NCBI GenBank assembly: GCA_029567325.1
Contig: JAKQLF010000155.1
Coordinates: forward strand, 1 to 64,000
From: Bacteroidota bacterium
Lineage (GTDB): Bacteria > Bacteroidota > Bacteroidia > Chitinophagales > Saprospiraceae
Direction of reading: 5' to 3'
DNA: 64,000 bases
A program made the translations under genes and the position numbers. Below, piece after piece: positions 13,843-55,054 of the stretch (position 1 is the stretch's first letter; each line of letters starts with the position of its first letter). Under the pieces are notes generated by a model. It saw nothing but the letters and a program-made list of their open reading frames with translations, was not told where the DNA came from and did no database searches.

Positions 13843-15630
13843 ATGAGAAAAATTTTATACTTATTAGCCTTTATAAGCCATACAATTTATGCTCAACCAT
13901 ATACAGATTATCTGGGAGCAGGACATAATTCTGGTATTACAGTAACAACCAGCAATAATAAATCAGGAACCAACGCCAGCAAAACAATTGATGGCTCTGG
14001 CTTGAATGATAGCCTTTTTGATGCATCTCGATTTTTATTTCAAGCAACATTTGGGGCAAAACCTGCATATATTTCTCAAGTCAAAAATATGGGTTTTGTT
14101 AATTGGATCAACGACCAGTTTACCAAACCACCCACTTATATGAGGCCCAAAATGGATTTGATTTGGGACACTATTTTTGCAAGAAGGATTTCTGAAGGGG
14201 AATTGGAGGAAGATATTTTTGGACCTTATGCGCTTCACTTCAATTATGCATTCTGGCAAAACAATATGAACAACCAAGATTTACTCAGGCAACGAGTAGC
14301 TGAAGCGCTTTCTGAAATTTTGGTAATTTCTATCAACTCCAATTTGGGTGATTGGGGAGAAGTTTTATGTTCCTATTATGACATGTTACTTGACGAATCC
14401 TTTGGAAATTATAAAGACTTATTAACCAAAGTTTCTTTACATCCAGCGATGGGTTACTACCTTAGTCATTATACCAATCCAAAAACAAACGTCCAACTCA
14501 AGATCAGGCCAGATGAGAATTATGCTCGGGAAATCATGCAGTTATTTACCATTGGTTTGTATGAGCTCAATAATGACGGGACTCAAAAATTGGATGGCAA
14601 CAACAATCCGATACCTACATACGACAATGTCGATATAAAAGAGATGGCCAAGGTCTTTACAGGATTGGGAGCAGGTGCTCTTGAAGACTGGGTTTGGTGG
14701 CAGGTAAATGATACTTTTGATCTAGACATTTATGCTGCTGTCAAGACAGTCCCAATGAAAATGTATGAATACCAACATGAACCAGGCAAGAAATATTTGT
14801 TAAAAAGTGACTCTATACCTGCTGGGCAAACAGGCATGCAGGACATCAATCAAGCAATCAACTTTTTGTTTAATCATCCAAATACAGGACCATTCGTAAG
14901 TAAAAAACTGATCCAAAGATTGGTGAAATCCAACCCAACTCCTGCATATATCAATAGGGTCGCCACTGTTTTTAATGGAGGAAGTGGAAATCCTAGGGGT
15001 GATATGAAAGCTGTTATAAAAGCAATTTTATTGGATCCAGAAGCTCGAACCAGAGCTGCTATGAATCAAATGGATGCAGGGATGCTTCGTCCTCCATTTT
15101 TGCGGGCGCTACATTATGCGAGAAGCATGAACTTAATACAACCACAGGGCAGATTTTGGCACAATGGTTATAATCTTTTAGACGGTCTTGGTCAACATGT
15201 TCTTGGCGCACCTACCGTTTTCAATTTCTACCCGCCTGATTATCAACCAGTAGGTGAAATTGCTGATAATGATTTGGTCGCTCCTGAGTTCAAACTTCAT
15301 AACTCTTCAAAATCTATCAACTATCTCAATAATCTATATGCATGGAATATGTGGGATGCAGTGATGTATAGTTGGGAAGGTGAGGAAAATGTGCCAGTTG
15401 TAAGATTGGATATGGCTTGGCTAGAAACAATGGCAGATGATCCTGAAAGAATGATCAATGAGTTGGATAAATTATTAACTCATGGGCAACTCACTGATCA
15501 GACCAGAGAAGTGATGCGTGACGCAATGAGGCAGATAAAGTGGCCGTGGGACCAAGAATGGAGAATTTACCGTCCAAGATTATTGGTTTATCTTTTTATG
15601 ATTTCTCCAGATTATACAATTTTAAAATAA
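13843..15630 (+). CDS. DUF1800 domain secreted protein
   Basis: A 595-residue exported protein. It starts with a signal peptide (about residues 1-18, ending IYAQ). The body is the DUF1800 domain, recognised by ASRFLFQATFGAKPAYISQVKNMGFVNWINDQF near the start, repeated helical stretches such as LRQRVAEALSEILVISINS, the segment RPDENYAREIMQLFTIGLYELNNDG, and the C-terminal YQPVGEIADNDLVAPEF. The function of DUF1800 proteins is not established. They very often precede a DUF1501 gene, as here with 6 bases between. No T9SS domain is visible at its end. It probably acts in the periplasm or at the surface. Confidence 0.9.
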   Translation: MRKILYLLAFISHTIYAQPYTDYLGAGHNSGITVTTSNNKSGTNASKTIDGSGLNDSLFDASRFLFQATFGAKPAYISQVKNMGFVNWINDQFTKPPTYMRPKMDLIWDTIFARRISEGELEEDIFGPYALHFNYAFWQNNMNNQDLLRQRVAEALSEILVISINSNLGDWGEVLCSYYDMLLDESFGNYKDLLTKVSLHPAMGYYLSHYTNPKTNVQLKIRPDENYAREIMQLFTIGLYELNNDGTQKLDGNNNPIPTYDNVDIKEMAKVFTGLGAGALEDWVWWQVNDTFDLDIYAAVKTVPMKMYEYQHEPGKKYLLKSDSIPAGQTGMQDINQAINFLFNHPNTGPFVSKKLIQRLVKSNPTPAYINRVATVFNGGSGNPRGDMKAVIKAILLDPEARTRAAMNQMDAGMLRPPFLRALHYARSMNLIQPQGRFWHNGYNLLDGLGQHVLGAPTVFNFYPPDYQPVGEIADNDLVAPEFKLHNSSKSINYLNNLYAWNMWDAVMYSWEGEENVPVVRLDMAWLETMADDPERMINELDKLLTHGQLTDQTREVMRDAMRQIKWPWDQEWRIYRPRLLVYLFMISPDYTILK

Positions 15631-15636
15631 CGGAAG

Positions 15637-17061
15637 ATGGCTAATATAGATCGCAGAAAATTTATCAGACAAGCGAGTTGTGCTGCTGTAGGAACGACTA
15701 CTTTTCTTTCTACAATGCTCAACCTCAAAACGCTAAACGCAGCTTCCATCCTTAACAGTACTGTTAATGCGCAGGAGGATTACAAAGCATTGGTATGTTT
15801 ATTTATGTCAGGAGGTAATGACTCTTATAACATGTTGGTACCAAGAGACAATGGTGCTAATGGAGCTGTAAGTCTTTATAATACTTACAAAGCATCCAGA
15901 TCCAATCTTGCTCTCCCTTTCAATTCTTTGTTAAATCTGAATCATGTACTGCCAGGGTCTACACCTTTTGGTTTGAACCCTTCTCTTCCTAAAGTGGCTT
16001 CATTATACGGTTCCGGGAAGTTGGCTTTTGTTTCCAATGTTGGTACGTTGGTAGAACCTGTAGCTACTCGATCACAACTTGAAAATAATTCGAAACAAGC
16101 ACCTTTGGGCTTGTACTCACACTCTGATCAAGGTGCTCAATGGCAAACAGGTATTCCCAATGATCGTTCTGCGGTCGGATGGGCTGGAAAAATTGCTGAC
16201 ATGTTGCAATCTGTCAACACCAACGACAAGATATCTATGAATATATCATTGTCTGGGACCAATGTGATGCAGACAGGCAACAATACTGTAGAGTTTGCTA
16301 TAGATCCGGAAAATGGAAGTATTGGTATTTATGGAGATAATAATGACTGGTTGCTAAACCAAGTAACCAAGTCTAGTTTGAATAGTCTTTTTGCAGATAA
16401 TTATCAGGATATTTTCAAGAAGGCATATACTCGAGTGATTAAAAACAGTAGGGAAGGTAATGAAATATTACAAACGCAACTCAGTGTTCCTACTACATAT
16501 ACAACACCGTTTCCTGAAACTTACTTGGGTAATGCTTTCAAAATGGTCGCCAATGTAATAGCCAAGAGGTCTGGTTTGGGTATGAAAAGGCAAATATTTT
16601 TTATTGATTATGGTGGATGGGATCACCATGATGAAGTGATTGCAGCACAAACAGAAATGTTTACTGAGGTGGATAATGCCTTGCATTCATTCAACGCAGC
16701 AATGAATCAATTGTCGGTTTCAGATTTGGTAACCACTTTCTCCGTTTCTGAATTTAGTAGAACATTGACTTCCAATGGAAATGGAACAGATCATGGTTGG
16801 GGTGGAAATGTGATGGTCATGGGCGGAAATGTAGATGGCGGTAAAATGTTTGGTACTTATCCAAGTCTTAGTCTGAATAGTACTATTGATTTGGGCGGAG
16901 GTGTCCTCATCCCAAGTACGAGCACTGATGCTTATTTTGCTGAACTCGCACTATGGTACGGAGTACCGCCATCGGAACTCTCTACTTTATTTCCCAATAT
17001 TGGTAATTTTTATAACACTTCCAGTGGCGTCAAACCTATTGGTTTTATGAAAACTATCTAA
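15637..17061 (+). CDS. DUF1501 protein with Tat signal
   Basis: A 474-residue protein of the DUF1501 family, which shares a fold with alkaline phosphatase/sulfatase-like enzymes. The start DRRKFIRQAS is a twin-arginine motif ahead of a hydrophobic stretch, so it should be exported folded by Tat; TatA is encoded at 46.4 kb. Family signatures are LVCLFMSGGNDSYNMLVP near residue 50 and GGWDHHDEVIAAQTEMF near 330, whose acidic/His residues could bind metal. It follows DUF1800 by 6 bases and precedes a T9SS-targeted protein by 12, so the three look like one operon. The substrate is unknown. Confidence 0.92.
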   Translation: MANIDRRKFIRQASCAAVGTTTFLSTMLNLKTLNAASILNSTVNAQEDYKALVCLFMSGGNDSYNMLVPRDNGANGAVSLYNTYKASRSNLALPFNSLLNLNHVLPGSTPFGLNPSLPKVASLYGSGKLAFVSNVGTLVEPVATRSQLENNSKQAPLGLYSHSDQGAQWQTGIPNDRSAVGWAGKIADMLQSVNTNDKISMNISLSGTNVMQTGNNTVEFAIDPENGSIGIYGDNNDWLLNQVTKSSLNSLFADNYQDIFKKAYTRVIKNSREGNEILQTQLSVPTTYTTPFPETYLGNAFKMVANVIAKRSGLGMKRQIFFIDYGGWDHHDEVIAAQTEMFTEVDNALHSFNAAMNQLSVSDLVTTFSVSEFSRTLTSNGNGTDHGWGGNVMVMGGNVDGGKMFGTYPSLSLNSTIDLGGGVLIPSTSTDAYFAELALWYGVPPSELSTLFPNIGNFYNTSSGVKPIGFMKTI

Positions 17062-17073
17062 ATTCAAAATGTC

Positions 17074-18072
17074 ATGCAAAAAATCAAACAAATCATATTT
17101 CTTGCAATGTTGTTCGTTTGCAGTTATGCTGTGGGCCAACAATTGCCAATGAGACACAGTAGCGTTGCTGGTGATGGATGGTTATCTTGTACCCCTACCG
17201 CAAATCCAAATCCTGCTCGTGGGAGCTCACATTGGATAATGTACAATTTGGGTAATCAATACACACTCAATACCTTGAGGTTGTGGAATTTCAATCACCC
17301 TGACTCGCTGAATAGCGGTATTCAAAACTTGCAAATTGATATATCAACAAATGGAACAACTTGGAATAATATAGGACCATTTTCTCTTGCAAAAGCAAAT
17401 GGTTCATCTTTTTATGAGGGAACAGTTGTTACCAATTTAAATAAGAAAGTAGTCCGTTATTTATTGATTACAGCCACTTCCAATTATGGTGGAAGCTGTT
17501 ATGGATTGAGTGAGGTAAAATTTGATATCAACCAATCAGCTTTGCCAGTGACCATTGCTGCTTTCAAAATAGATTGTGGTGATCGTGAACCTGCACTCGT
17601 ATGGGAAGTCAAAGAAGAAAGTGACATTGAAGGGTACGTGATTGAAGGAAGTAACGACGTAGTAAATTGGTCTGCAGTAAAAAAAATTCCAAGTACTGGA
17701 TCAGCGACATACCGATCAAGCCTTACAGGAGCTGAAGCAAATTTTACATATTACAGACTGCTCATTGATGAGAAAAATAACGATGATTGGAATTCTATAT
17801 TAGTTTCAAATGCCTGTAAAAGGATTGCGCAAAATGTGGTGGCATGGCCAAACCCTGCGCAAGAAAGTACCAGCATCAAAGTAGATGACCTTGCAAATTA
17901 TACTGGAAAAATTATGCTTATTGACCAAAGAGGTGTTCTTATAAAAACCTTCAGTAATCAAAAAGTAGAGTCACAAATAAACCTCAATCTTGCTGATATT
18001 CCTGTAGGGCAATATTTTGTTGTTTTGCAAAATACTGTTGAAGATACCGTTATTCCAATTACAAAAATATAG
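17074..18072 (+). CDS. Surface protein with discoidin-like domain and T9SS type A sorting domain
   Basis: The 332-residue product has a signal peptide (about 1-20, AVGQQ). Residues about 30-160 look like an F5/8 type C (discoidin) beta-sandwich (SSHWIMYNLGNQYTLNTLRLWNF is the usual cadence), a fold that binds sugars or other ligands. The C-terminal ~75 residues (AWPNPAQESTSIKV, then LNLADIPVGQYFVVLQ) are a typical T9SS type A sorting domain. It should therefore be secreted or surface-anchored through the T9SS; PorW/SprE is encoded at 52 kb. It is third in the DUF1800-DUF1501 triad. Confidence 0.85.
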   Translation: MQKIKQIIFLAMLFVCSYAVGQQLPMRHSSVAGDGWLSCTPTANPNPARGSSHWIMYNLGNQYTLNTLRLWNFNHPDSLNSGIQNLQIDISTNGTTWNNIGPFSLAKANGSSFYEGTVVTNLNKKVVRYLLITATSNYGGSCYGLSEVKFDINQSALPVTIAAFKIDCGDREPALVWEVKEESDIEGYVIEGSNDVVNWSAVKKIPSTGSATYRSSLTGAEANFTYYRLLIDEKNNDDWNSILVSNACKRIAQNVVAWPNPAQESTSIKVDDLANYTGKIMLIDQRGVLIKTFSNQKVESQINLNLADIPVGQYFVVLQNTVEDTVIPITKI

Positions 18073-46395: not shown

Positions 46396-46599
46396 ATGTT
46401 GTTTTCAAATTTATTATTCAATCTAGGCGGCAGTGAAATCATATTCATTGCAGTATTGATACTTATTTTCTTTGGTGGTAAAAAAATACCTGAACTTATG
46501 AAGGGCCTTGGACAAGGTATTAAAGAGTTTAACAATGCAAAAGCCAATATCGAATCTGAGGTGAAAGAAAATCTCAGAGAGATAGAATCTAAGAAATAA
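46396..46599 (+). CDS. tatA: Twin-arginine translocase TatA/TatE-type subunit
   Basis: A 67-residue membrane protein that forms the pore-like assembly of the Tat pathway, which exports folded proteins. One N-terminal membrane helix ([22 protein letters not shown]) is followed by the amphipathic helix and a charged tail ([19 protein letters not shown]). The FGGKKIPEL hinge is diagnostic. The gene is single; tatC and tatB are not in the window. The DUF1501 protein at 15.6 kb is a likely substrate by its RR signal. Confidence 0.93.
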
Positions 46600-52015: not shown

Positions 52016-55000
52016 TTATTTGTAGTTTGACTCAAAAAATGTACGGTAAGATGCATGTGTTTTCTCAGCAACCATTTTCCTGAAATTTCTTTGTGTAATG
52101 GGCAATAGTTCATATGCTGCAATACCAGATGAGATAAACTTTTCTTGATCTTTTATGACTGTGTCGTAGTATTTCCTTGCTTTAGCCATGTTTTCAAAAC
52201 TTCTCACCATGATGACTTGCGTACCTTCATCTTTGCTCAGAATTTGTTCTCCCAATTGCAAATTTTCCAGGCTAAAGAATTCCTTGTTATAGTTGAGGAT
52301 AGAAATTTTTGCTGCTTGCAGTGCTTTTTCGCTATAGTCAAACAAAACAACAGCGACATAATGGCGACTATCGTCTTCTTTGCTGAAAATATTATCAACT
52401 TCTTGCACATTCACTGGTGTAAAAGAAGATTCGTCACCTTTGAGAAAACGCATGACTTCTTTTGCTTTCGTTTCCTCAGGCGTACCTGGATACCTTACGA
52501 TTGTTTCTTGTAAACCTTTGATATAAGCATCCTTACCTTCAAGAAATCCAATACTCATGGCACTGATCAGCGAAAATTTTGCCATAAATTTATTGTCTGT
52601 TCCAAATAAATTTCCGGCATTGGCTGCACGATCAATGACAGATTTGTAATTTCTAGCTTCAAACATTTTGTATGTATCGTCATAGTAAGTCTCCACTCGC
52701 ATTGACTCAGATATCAATTCATTCACATAAGAAGGATCCTTAATGATTTTCGCATAATTGGATTCTGGATATTCGTCAAGAATCATTTTTCTGATTCTAG
52801 TGACATTTACCTGATCATTTTGATCTGAATAGTTGGTAAATAACAAATACAATGCGTCCAATCGTTTGTTATCATTGGGATATTTTAATACCAACCTCTC
52901 TAGATATTTGTTACTCTCTTCGTAATCTTCAAGGTCCAACTTTAGTTTACTACCCAGCTTATAAAGGGCTTCTGAAATTTGATTGTTGTACCTGATTTTT
53001 TGTGTCTGCTCAAATGGAATATCTGCCATGAGTTTTTTAAACTCCTCGTCATCAATTTTTGCAGAGACTTCTTCGACGGGTGTGTCGGTATAGGTTATAT
53101 TGCTTCCAGAAGCGAGAGATTTATTTGATCTTCTCCAATTATCTTCCAATGGAATTTCCCCCCAGATTTTTGTAAATTCTTTTTTCCCATTTTCCAAATT
53201 GATAGGGTTATAGGCAAAAAAGGTACTATTTAATGATACAGTTCTTTTGGCTGTAAAGAGTGGGGAAGAAGTTGCTGGGTCCAATTTTTGCCCATTTCCC
53301 GACTCGTTTTTCATTTTTCTCTGTTTAGCTATTTCCATCAAAGCGTCTTTATCGAGCTCAGAAATTGCCAATAAGGAATCCAACTTGATGATGGTAGAAA
53401 GAGATTCAGCAACATCTTTGAGTTTCCTAGACATATCTGCAACAGCAATACCACGCGGATCTTTAACGGCCATATTCATCGCTGTAGAATCAAAATAAGC
53501 TTTAGCTTCTACATATTTTTTGCTTCCGTAATACATTCCCGCAATTTTATAATAAGCCTCAGCCTTCAAGATAGGGTCATTGCCATTATTTTGCACACTC
53601 TGTGAGAAATACTCTAGTGCCTTTGTTGTTTCATTTCTATTAAACTCAATTTCACCCAGAGCAAAATAAATCTGATCTTTATAATCTTTATTTTTATCTT
53701 CTTTGAGCATTTTTTCCAAGCCTTTTTCAACATCTCTGACGCCATTGTTTCCGTCTAAAGCATTGTTTTTGAGTTGGTTGAGCTGTGCCATGAATTTTAA
53801 TTTGAAATTCTTGCCAGCTTTCTTTTTTGCTTTTTCAAAAAAAGCGCCTGCTTCTGCATATCGGCCATTCAAACCAGAAATTTGTCCTGCAATGAATGCA
53901 TAACGGGCTTTATCTTCTTTGCGATCTGCTGTTTCATAGGCCATATCTAGATACTGCACAGCTGCATTGTATTCTTTCTGTTTGATTTTCAAGTCTGCCA
54001 TTGCTGGTGCCCAACCGACTTTTACTTCCTTTTTGTGATCTGTCAGTTCATCAATTCTATTGAGTAAGTATTCGGCGTTTGCATACTGTTCTGTGCGAGT
54101 ATATGCTTTTGCCAGCCACAGTAATCCCTCATTGTAAGCTGATTTGTCAGCCTTCTCTTTTTGCTTTTCTTTGGGTGTCTCCTCAGCAACAACAGGTTTT
54201 GACTCGGCAACTGTATCTTTTGATGGTGTAGTTTTCACAGGCGTTTTCACGACAGGATCTTTTTTTACCTCGGTAGGTTGTGGTGTTGTTGGCGTTTCTG
54301 TTTTGGGGACTCTTTTACCTTGAGATCTTGCTTTTCGGCGTTCTTCTGCTTCTTTTTTGCGATCCTCTGCTTCTTTTTTTCTCTTTTTTTGCTCCTCCTC
54401 CTTTTGTTTTTGAAGGTCTTTGCGCTCTTGTTCTTTAGTGTTTTTGGCTTCTTCGCGTTTTTTCTCTAAGTCTTTTTGGGCCTGTTTTTTTTCGTCATCC
54501 TTAGCCTTTCTTTCCGCCTCCAATTCTTTTTTTCGTTCTTTACTCGCAGCTTTATTATTGGTTCTACTGACTTTTCTTTTTTTATAATTTCTGCCGAAAG
54601 GATTTGTAGGATTAAATTCGTCCTGGAAGAATTCAAATGTTTCTACAGAGGATTCATAGTCCTGTTTGAGAAATTGAGCTTTGCCCATTAAGACATAACA
54701 ATCGTCTACCCAATCTCCAACTTCATGTATGGCTGCAACTCTGGTAACCTTTTCTATGGATTTATCAAGTTGGCCATACACCATTTTGGGATCAGAAACC
54801 GCTACAAAATCATAAACGTCCAGTAAATTGGAGTAATTGTCTGTGTTGTTTTCCCTTAAAATTGCAGTACTCTCCTTGATTAATTCATTTGCATTGAAGT
54901 AGCCATTATACTCAGAATTTAAGTTGTGATAGAACTTACCAAACTTAGAAACGTCGCCCTTTTTTTTCTTCGTTGCACACGAAAATACCATCACGCTACA

Positions 55001-55054
55001 AAGCAGCACGATTGATATCCTTAACAGATATGTATGAACTTGTCTAAAAACCAT
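52016..55054 (-). CDS. porW: PorW/SprE-type T9SS-associated TPR lipoprotein
   Basis: A 1012-residue outer-membrane-lipoprotein-like protein. The signal peptide ends in a lipobox FSCATKKKK (Cys26), so it is lipidated. FGKFYHNLNSEYNGYFNANELIKES is a mark of the PorW/SprE group needed for T9SS function in gliding and pathogenic Bacteroidota. A Lys/Glu-rich coiled segment with a low-complexity KKKEAEERRK stretch follows (about 160-290), then TPR-like repeats over the rest (LLWLAKAYTRTEQYANAEYLLNRI, ALYLLFTNYSDQNDQVNV and others). Its place in the same window as a T9SS cargo supports the reading. A consensus reverse promoter is at 55091-55121. Confidence 0.88.
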   Translation of the reverse strand: MVFRQVHTYLLRISIVLLCSVMVFSCATKKKKGDVSKFGKFYHNLNSEYNGYFNANELIKESTAILRENNTDNYSNLLDVYDFVAVSDPKMVYGQLDKSIEKVTRVAAIHEVGDWVDDCYVLMGKAQFLKQDYESSVETFEFFQDEFNPTNPFGRNYKKRKVSRTNNKAASKERKKELEAERKAKDDEKKQAQKDLEKKREEAKNTKEQERKDLQKQKEEEQKKRKKEAEDRKKEAEERRKARSQGKRVPKTETPTTPQPTEVKKDPVVKTPVKTTPSKDTVAESKPVVAEETPKEKQKEKADKSAYNEGLLWLAKAYTRTEQYANAEYLLNRIDELTDHKKEVKVGWAPAMADLKIKQKEYNAAVQYLDMAYETADRKEDKARYAFIAGQISGLNGRYAEAGAFFEKAKKKAGKNFKLKFMAQLNQLKNNALDGNNGVRDVEKGLEKMLKEDKNKDYKDQIYFALGEIEFNRNETTKALEYFSQSVQNNGNDPILKAEAYYKIAGMYYGSKKYVEAKAYFDSTAMNMAVKDPRGIAVADMSRKLKDVAESLSTIIKLDSLLAISELDKDALMEIAKQRKMKNESGNGQKLDPATSSPLFTAKRTVSLNSTFFAYNPINLENGKKEFTKIWGEIPLEDNWRRSNKSLASGSNITYTDTPVEEVSAKIDDEEFKKLMADIPFEQTQKIRYNNQISEALYKLGSKLKLDLEDYEESNKYLERLVLKYPNDNKRLDALYLLFTNYSDQNDQVNVTRIRKMILDEYPESNYAKIIKDPSYVNELISESMRVETYYDDTYKMFEARNYKSVIDRAANAGNLFGTDNKFMAKFSLISAMSIGFLEGKDAYIKGLQETIVRYPGTPEETKAKEVMRFLKGDESSFTPVNVQEVDNIFSKEDDSRHYVAVVLFDYSEKALQAAKISILNYNKEFFSLENLQLGEQILSKDEGTQVIMVRSFENMAKARKYYDTVIKDQEKFISSGIAAYELLPITQRNFRKMVAEKTHASYRTFFESNYK

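Follow-up and report, generated by a model that had tools for sequence, protein, structure and literature searches.

A DUF1800-DUF1501 gene pair accompanied by a discoidin-type secreted protein: a candidate envelope module in one clade of Bacteroidota

DUF1800 and DUF1501 proteins are widespread and without an assigned job; within the Bacteroidota, DUF1501 (E <= 1e-60) is present in 82 of 345 genomes. The locus described here, in which a third gene follows the pair, raises the question of whether that gene belongs with the other two and what it says about their role. The locus lies in a 64,000-nucleotide stretch of DNA, here called the window, from a Saprospiraceae genome (assembly GCA_029567325.1, contig JAKQLF010000155.1, positions 1 to 64,000 of the forward strand). 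The original prediction described three close genes encoding a DUF1800 protein, a DUF1501 protein and a discoidin-like protein with a type IX secretion system (T9SS) sorting domain. The coordinates and the Pfam and NCBIfam matches agree with that description, with gaps of 6 bases between DUF1800 and DUF1501 and 12 bases between DUF1501 and the discoidin gene. The parts of the triad are as follows.

13843..15630, + strand: DUF1800 protein, 595 amino acids (Pfam PF08811, E 2e-82, 278.1 bits, cut-off 26.1)
about 13843-13893, + strand: Sec signal peptide of the DUF1800 protein, judged by eye
15637..17061, + strand: DUF1501 protein, 474 amino acids (Pfam PF07394, E 7e-31, 108.2 bits, cut-off 27)
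15637..15771, + strand: twin-arginine signal peptide of the DUF1501 protein, DRRKFIRQ, with the arginine pair (RR) at 15652-15657 and the end of the signal placed by eye
17074..18072, + strand: secreted discoidin/F5-8C (CBM32-like) protein, 332 amino acids, with a Sec signal (Pfam; leader judged by eye)
17209..17508, + strand: F5/8 type C (discoidin) domain, residues 46-145 of the third protein (Pfam; alignment of 20 rows)
17845..18042, + strand: T9SS type A C-terminal sorting domain of the third protein (PF18962 Por_Secre_tail, 31.5 bits, cut-off 27; TIGR04183, 24.8 bits, cut-off 23)

The discoidin assignment is given by two Pfam models, F5_F8_type_C_2 (44.1 bits, cut-off 27.8) and F5_F8_type_C (42.3 bits, cut-off 28.2). 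To see how constant the arrangement is, we took the 42 close relatives of the window DUF1501 (more than 340 bits, itself included) found across 60 genomes of the same genus, family and order, its own genome among them, and all 42 loci were fetched. A discoidin gene stands next to the DUF1800-DUF1501 pair in 38 of them. One of the other four loci, L139, sits at a contig end and was scored as a miss; the same genome has, at another contig end, a truncated discoidin open reading frame (ORF) that may belong to this locus. The reverse view gives much the same picture, with 38 of 40 strong discoidin matches (E <= 2.8e-19) in the 60 genomes adjoining such a pair. The two strays are one whose ORF leaves the contig end (G023:C155) and one (G037:C81) that has neither a DUF1501 nor a DUF1800 gene within the 6.7 kb examined around it. 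Of the 345 genomes of the phylum, six have the discoidin subfamily (E <= 1e-12), and a DUF1501 of the clade, scoring at least 570 bits, occurs in exactly these six; besides the window genome, the other five all have the third gene next to the pair. Four of the six belong to one family and they are therefore not independent samples, and with at most four DUF1501 and twelve discoidin candidates scored per genome, weaker copies may escape these scans. No discoidin gene of the triad subfamily was found beside 13 other pairs of the phylum that were read (L209-L221).

The triad has also been rearranged without coming apart. In six of 43 loci the third gene lies upstream of DUF1800 rather than downstream, and the best tree requires four changes of side, at least two of them forced by well-supported branches. 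Within the third protein, the discoidin domain is the constant part (mean column identity 57% in the 20-row alignment), and the remainder varies, bringing in a T9SS tail, GCX_COOH, PA14/GLEYA, CBM_4_9 or FN3; a profile built from the third proteins also matches CBM32 structures in the PDB. When 43 third proteins were scored with a tail profile of our own, made from 16 of the same proteins (one stray DUF1800 row having been dropped from 44), 26 had a T9SS tail, one of them with GCX as well, 12 had GCX and five had neither. Among those five, L067 and L054 carry GCX_COOH by NCBIfam, L068, which resembles L067, was not among the proteins scanned, L045 is truncated at a contig end and L047 has neither domain. 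Curated models place the T9SS tail above cut-off in the window protein and in L039, L042, L043, L046, L062, L204 and L205. Since adjacency is kept through changes of side and of domain make-up, we suggest a functional tie with sugar binding at its centre. Judged by these gene neighbourhoods, the third gene belongs to the module of this clade and is no passenger, and, among the pairs of the phylum that were read, the link to the putative lectin is confined to this DUF1501 clade. The triad clade forms one side of a branch supported at 100/99 in a tree of 49 DUF1501 proteins. In a larger tree of the clade, L038 and L069, both without a third gene, split off first, with the remainder supported moderately (81/85); the lectin may thus have joined once, after that split, and a third locus without it, L070, would in that case be a loss.

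Three side observations concern the make-up of these loci. In one branch of five loci (L045, L046, L047, L062 and L065) the third protein has a CxxCH (heme-type) stretch, and a similarity to PSCyt1, a planctomycete cytochrome domain, in L045 and L047 is below threshold (best 17.3 bits, cut-off 22). The DUF1800 genes of L038 (7427-9421) and L069 (5373-7361) code for about 90 extra residues near the N-terminus that look Calx-beta-like by eye. In one relative, a gene that we named sulfatase-like from reading adjoins the triad (L207, 956-2413).

The three products carry different export signals, which the original prediction counted as three export routes, and it placed components of two of them in the window. 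Both components are there, one of the twin-arginine translocation (Tat) system and one of the T9SS:

46423..46572, + strand: TatA, Tat exporter component, extent of the match (PF02416, 46.1 bits, cut-off 21)
52016..55054, - strand: PorW/SprE, T9SS periplasmic lipoprotein (NF052312, 465 bits, cut-off 250)

The window TatA is the sole TatA_B_E match of the genome, its partial stretch scoring 46.7 with TIGR01411, under the cut-off of 53.9, and TatC is encoded in the same genome outside the window. Signal peptides were judged with a 12-residue hydrophobicity window and by eye rather than with a trained predictor. Every one of the 47 DUF1501 proteins of the triad clade bears the RR motif, with R6, R7 and F9 invariant in 41 of 41 aligned, which together with TatA and TatC in the genome makes DUF1501 a candidate Tat substrate. 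By script, 41 of the 44 clade DUF1800 proteins that could be assessed have a Sec leader, and the figure rises to 43 of 44 once L038 and L069 are added by eye; the remaining one is L070. The sorting domain suggests that the third protein is T9SS type A cargo. T9SS cargo crosses the inner membrane through Sec first. Therefore, although the Sec, Tat and T9SS signals all stand as predicted, they would amount to two inner-membrane routes and one outer-membrane route. Nor is the routing of the pair confined to this operon: plasmid-borne pairs in Vibrio, Agarilytica and Sphingomonas also combine an RR motif on DUF1501 with what looks by eye like a lipoprotein leader on DUF1800.

The other pairs of the phylum are routed differently. 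After removal of 10 repeat loci from 40 rows of the canonical type, 30 loci remained (L074-L076, L180-L203, L211, L218 and L219, the last two of a longer type), and DUF1501 has the RR motif in 28 of them. DUF1800 could be assessed in 26, the exceptions being three cut by the locus edge (L186, L194 and L197) and one without a start in the piece (L192), and in all 26 it has no hydrophobic leader; the highest hydrophobicity among them is 1.15 (L182, first start) compared with at least 1.63 in the 41 clade leaders. Because DUF1800 is without a signal there while DUF1501 has the motif, these sequences suggest that both proteins act beyond the cytoplasm and that DUF1800 is exported together with DUF1501 through Tat in such pairs; alternatively, DUF1800 would stay in the cytoplasm. 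Hitchhiking through Tat is a known mechanism (excerpts of PMC4273604 and PMC10924467). We also considered DUF1800 as a cytoplasmic Tat chaperone and disfavour this, as other clades give it Sec or lipoprotein-like leaders.

What the DUF1501 protein might do is suggested by its predicted fold. The AlphaFold2 model has a predicted template modelling score (pTM) of 0.83 and a mean predicted local distance difference test (pLDDT) score of 76. In VIA alignments it superposes on snake venom phosphodiesterase (7cba_A) with Z 18.3 over 250 residues at a root-mean-square deviation (rmsd) of 3.6, on PafA with Z 16.8 and on choline sulfatase with Z 16.5. Foldseek returned 73 chains at E <= 0.001, with carrageenan and steroid sulfatases on top. 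Resting on the VIA alignments, the model suggests an alkaline phosphatase superfamily fold. Sequence searches of the PDB with DUF1501 and DUF1800, both with single sequences and with profiles, gave no significant relative. The 41 bacterial rows all share seven residues, D62, S161, H162, D329, H331, D385 and H386, and have E or D at position 372. From the motifs of the superfamily, we take these together with E372 to be the candidate metal-binding and catalytic residues.

The DUF1800 protein is largely helical in its predicted model, and the partner of the window DUF1501 matches DUF1800 only by Pfam, with no PSD1/DUF1553 partner found for it. PSD1 is the other family found beside DUF1501, and an hhalign comparison of DUF1800 with it gave E 9e-4 (probability 23%, 57 columns) with a broad alignment and E 0.054 with a narrow one, where DUF1501 as an unrelated control gave 0.085 and 0.041; a kinship of the two partner families is a weak lead, hinted at by these profiles. 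One scan of genome contigs gave a single short match, on a Verrucomicrobia contig.

Scans of viral contigs with the bacterial alignments found DUF1800 and DUF1501 as neighbours on 16 contigs, in 17 pairs that include one near-copy (the DUF1501 proteins of L169 and L170 are identical), and on two more contigs a single one of these genes, without its partner, lies at the contig end. All 10 viral proteins scanned were above the Pfam cut-offs. There is no Tat signal on DUF1501 in 16 of the 17 pairs, RR flags set by script in L148 and L153 having been discounted because the motif falls just ahead of the first strand of the domain. The exception, L145, is on a 322 kb contig and may be bacterial. The surroundings of several pairs are those of phage structural genes. 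In L170 a baseplate wedge gene (8.5e-31) lies two genes upstream and a terminase (4.3e-95) two genes downstream; in L153 a terminase (3e-154) directly follows the pair and a portal gene (1.2e-74) comes next; L154 has a tail-fibre-type gene nearby; and in L151 the gene directly downstream weakly matches a minor tail protein (1e-6), with a virion structural match (2e-10) further along. Two neighbours tested in L149 had no match, and the matches of two in L150 were to a family of unknown function and, weakly, to transcription factors. No discoidin gene was found in the viral loci.

PHROGs held no family for the DUF1501 proteins of L150, L151 and L147 or for the DUF1800 proteins of L145, L149, L167 and L171, and only weak matches for the DUF1800 proteins of L150, L147 and L169 (best 2e-5). 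In L169 the N-terminal portion of DUF1800 shows a weak match to a baseplate/tail-fibre connector family (2e-4). Separately, residues 377-435 of the viral DUF1800 of L168 (2475-4871) match a PHROGs baseplate wedge family (1.6e-7), for which we have no explanation. The phage evidence consists of IMG/VR contigs and two BFVD entries, A0A6J5M749 and A0A6J5M742, which place both families among the viral models of uncultured Caudovirales. Against cultivated phage records, three of five viral-contig query proteins had no match, and the other two match one unannotated 6.9 kb record, MT837425. In the tree of 49 DUF1501 proteins, the viral, proteobacterial, acidobacterial and triad forms make up one clade (95/80) with the usual motif SHxxQ, its S replaced in a few viral rows, and the canonical clade of the phylum, with SHFRS, stands apart. 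Solitary DUF1501 genes with an RR motif and no DUF1800 also occur on large viral contigs of up to 221 kb (L237-L251); near-identical copies are present on several contigs, both of the proteins included in the tree group with the PSD1 type, and we did not count these genes as viral pairs.

Beyond the observed gene anatomy, triad conservation, predicted fold class and sorting motifs, we infer an activity for DUF1501, a complex with DUF1800, a substrate and a division of labour. Together the three genes would make up one envelope module concerned with a glycoconjugate of the cell surface. In it, DUF1501 would be an alkaline phosphatase superfamily enzyme, a metal-dependent hydrolase or transferase that folds in the cytoplasm and is exported by Tat, and DUF1800 a constant helical partner, exported by Sec and probably binding DUF1501. 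Both would remain in the periplasm, where their task might be to form or trim substituents of the phosphate or sulphate type on a polysaccharide or glycolipid bound for the surface, and the discoidin protein, leaving by Sec and then by T9SS, would bind that same glycan outside and hold or sense it. The chitin synthase operons in which the pair also occurs (excerpts of PMC5122149) and the phage structural-gene surroundings are independent hints at a glycan role for the pair. As a whole, the reading of a periplasmic pair that modifies a glycoconjugate bound outside by a T9SS-displayed lectin is one that we favour tentatively and that falls somewhat short of probable. It departs from the earlier picture of a surface-attached enzyme with a periplasmic partner, because the enzyme-like protein here is DUF1501, which has no visible outer-membrane signal, and the protein with the T9SS tail is of a sugar-binding type. 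The broader proposal of a conserved envelope or surface module has held up at the level of sequence, with the RR motif in every DUF1501 of the clade and a third gene that, far from being absent from most related loci, adjoins the pair in 38 of 42 and shares its six genomes.

Several results weigh against our reading. Contact of the two proteins is not readable from the joined DUF1800-DUF1501 model (pTM 0.64), which as a whole has no PDB match at E <= 0.001. The Foldseek superpositions of the DUF1501 model are loose (TM scores 0.25-0.41 in the rows shown, rmsd mostly above 10), and a profile comparison of DUF1501 with a sulfatase protein gave nothing significant. No glycan-synthesis gene was seen adjoining the triad in the window. 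Three of the 42 pairs, L038 on contig C117 of this same genome, L069 and L070, are without the third gene with no contig end as the cause. Finally, among 16 viral-contig rows of DUF1501, S161 has become A or N in five and D62 has become C in two, and because of these replacements those viral DUF1501 proteins may be binders rather than enzymes. The pair could then be a two-subunit binding or structural device, a pseudo-enzyme scaffold that recognises a surface polymer and keeps the fold as a binding platform. That all 16 viral rows retain H162, Q165 and W169 in spite of these losses would suit such a device, as would the weak connector match of one viral DUF1800, but the candidate positions are kept in all 41 bacterial rows, with E or D at 372, and we consider a scaffold unlikely.

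The conservation of the triad could also be read with the discoidin protein as a client, in which case the pair would mature the third protein or its anchor, by periplasmic modification of either the cargo or a lipopolysaccharide (LPS)-type anchor, ahead of T9SS export or in its course. The third protein does have to cross the periplasm, most of its 43 relatives end in a T9SS tail or GCX_COOH, and MCR-1, which modifies LPS, and LtaS, which makes teichoic acid, are also among the Foldseek matches of the DUF1501 model. However, the conserved part of the supposed client is its discoidin domain and not its tail, and the pair evidently has a job without it, no discoidin gene having been found near the other pairs read in the phylum, in the viral loci, or around four plasmid-borne pairs, for which the gene tables are incomplete; such a role thus appears improbable to us. 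That the third gene is a mere co-transcribed neighbour with no shared function would fit the fact that not all three pairs of this genome have one, but it is hard to square with adjacency maintained despite changes of side and domains and with co-occurrence in the same six genomes, and we hold it to be very unlikely. Taking bacteria and phages together, it is possible, if rather doubtful, that DUF1800-DUF1501 serves phages and hosts alike, in their encounter, as a general two-subunit device for surface glycans. Bacteria would export it (DUF1501 through Tat, and DUF1800 through Sec, as a lipoprotein or as a Tat hitchhiker), phages would put it into or onto their virions without signals, and one T9SS-bearing clade would have added a dedicated surface lectin.

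Around the triad, the downstream side has a DUF4199 gene and then an ORF without a Pfam match, and the other flank is an infB region, in which Pfam identifies IF-2 and rimP and nusA are names given on reading the ORFs. The genome carries two further DUF1800-DUF1501 pairs, on contigs C54 and C117, of which the C54 pair adjoins a discoidin gene and the C117 pair does not. No chitin synthase was found beside the window triad among the neighbours checked, the remainder of the genome not having been searched for one.

We believe that a lectin almost exclusive to one clade, the predicted fold and a viral form without Tat signals narrow the question of what these families do to surface glycan chemistry. 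The most useful leads are the viral form and the signal-less DUF1800 of ordinary pairs: the latter makes complex formation testable through export alone, and viral proteins without a Tat signal could be produced in the E. coli cytoplasm. Neither the lectin triad, nor a viral pair, nor a signal-less DUF1800 is described in the excerpts of the literature on DUF1501 and DUF1800 that we consulted (PMC5122149, PMC5418858, PMC4452313, PMC4960237, PMC7563939, PMC6946804, PMC6653060 and PMC3597751), a survey to which subscription literature and preprints did not belong; in PMC5418858 there is only a weak DUF1501 match, on a 61-residue phage protein.

Compared with known systems, the DUF1501 model has the same fold as the alkaline phosphatase superfamily, which includes the NPP phosphodiesterases, PafA, choline sulfatase and LtaS, at about 10% identity and with the metal ligands and nucleophile of DUF1501 as candidates. 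We know of no partner protein like DUF1800 for that superfamily. Within the phylum, the canonical pairs, with a DUF1501 of about 400 amino acids, share the gene order and, for the most part, the RR motif with the triad, whereas they form a separate clade with a signal-less DUF1800 and no discoidin neighbour in the stretches read. The DUF1501-PSD1 (DUF1553) type likewise sets an RR-motif DUF1501 beside a partner family, with PSD1 in place of DUF1800 and a DUF1501 from a distant branch. In the viral pairs both families are adjacent on 16 contigs and DUF1501 falls in one clade with that of the window; unlike the triad, 16 of 17 are without a Tat signal, and tail, baseplate or packaging genes are near on four contigs tested. 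Closest in the literature is the pair in the chitin synthase operons of Brenneria, Pectobacterium, Dickeya, Agrobacterium vitis and others, where the two families also stand side by side and a Tat motif was noted on DUF1501, with no surface lectin mentioned in the excerpts of that paper (PMC5122149). The lectin triad is thus a novel form of an already known DUF1800-DUF1501 pair.

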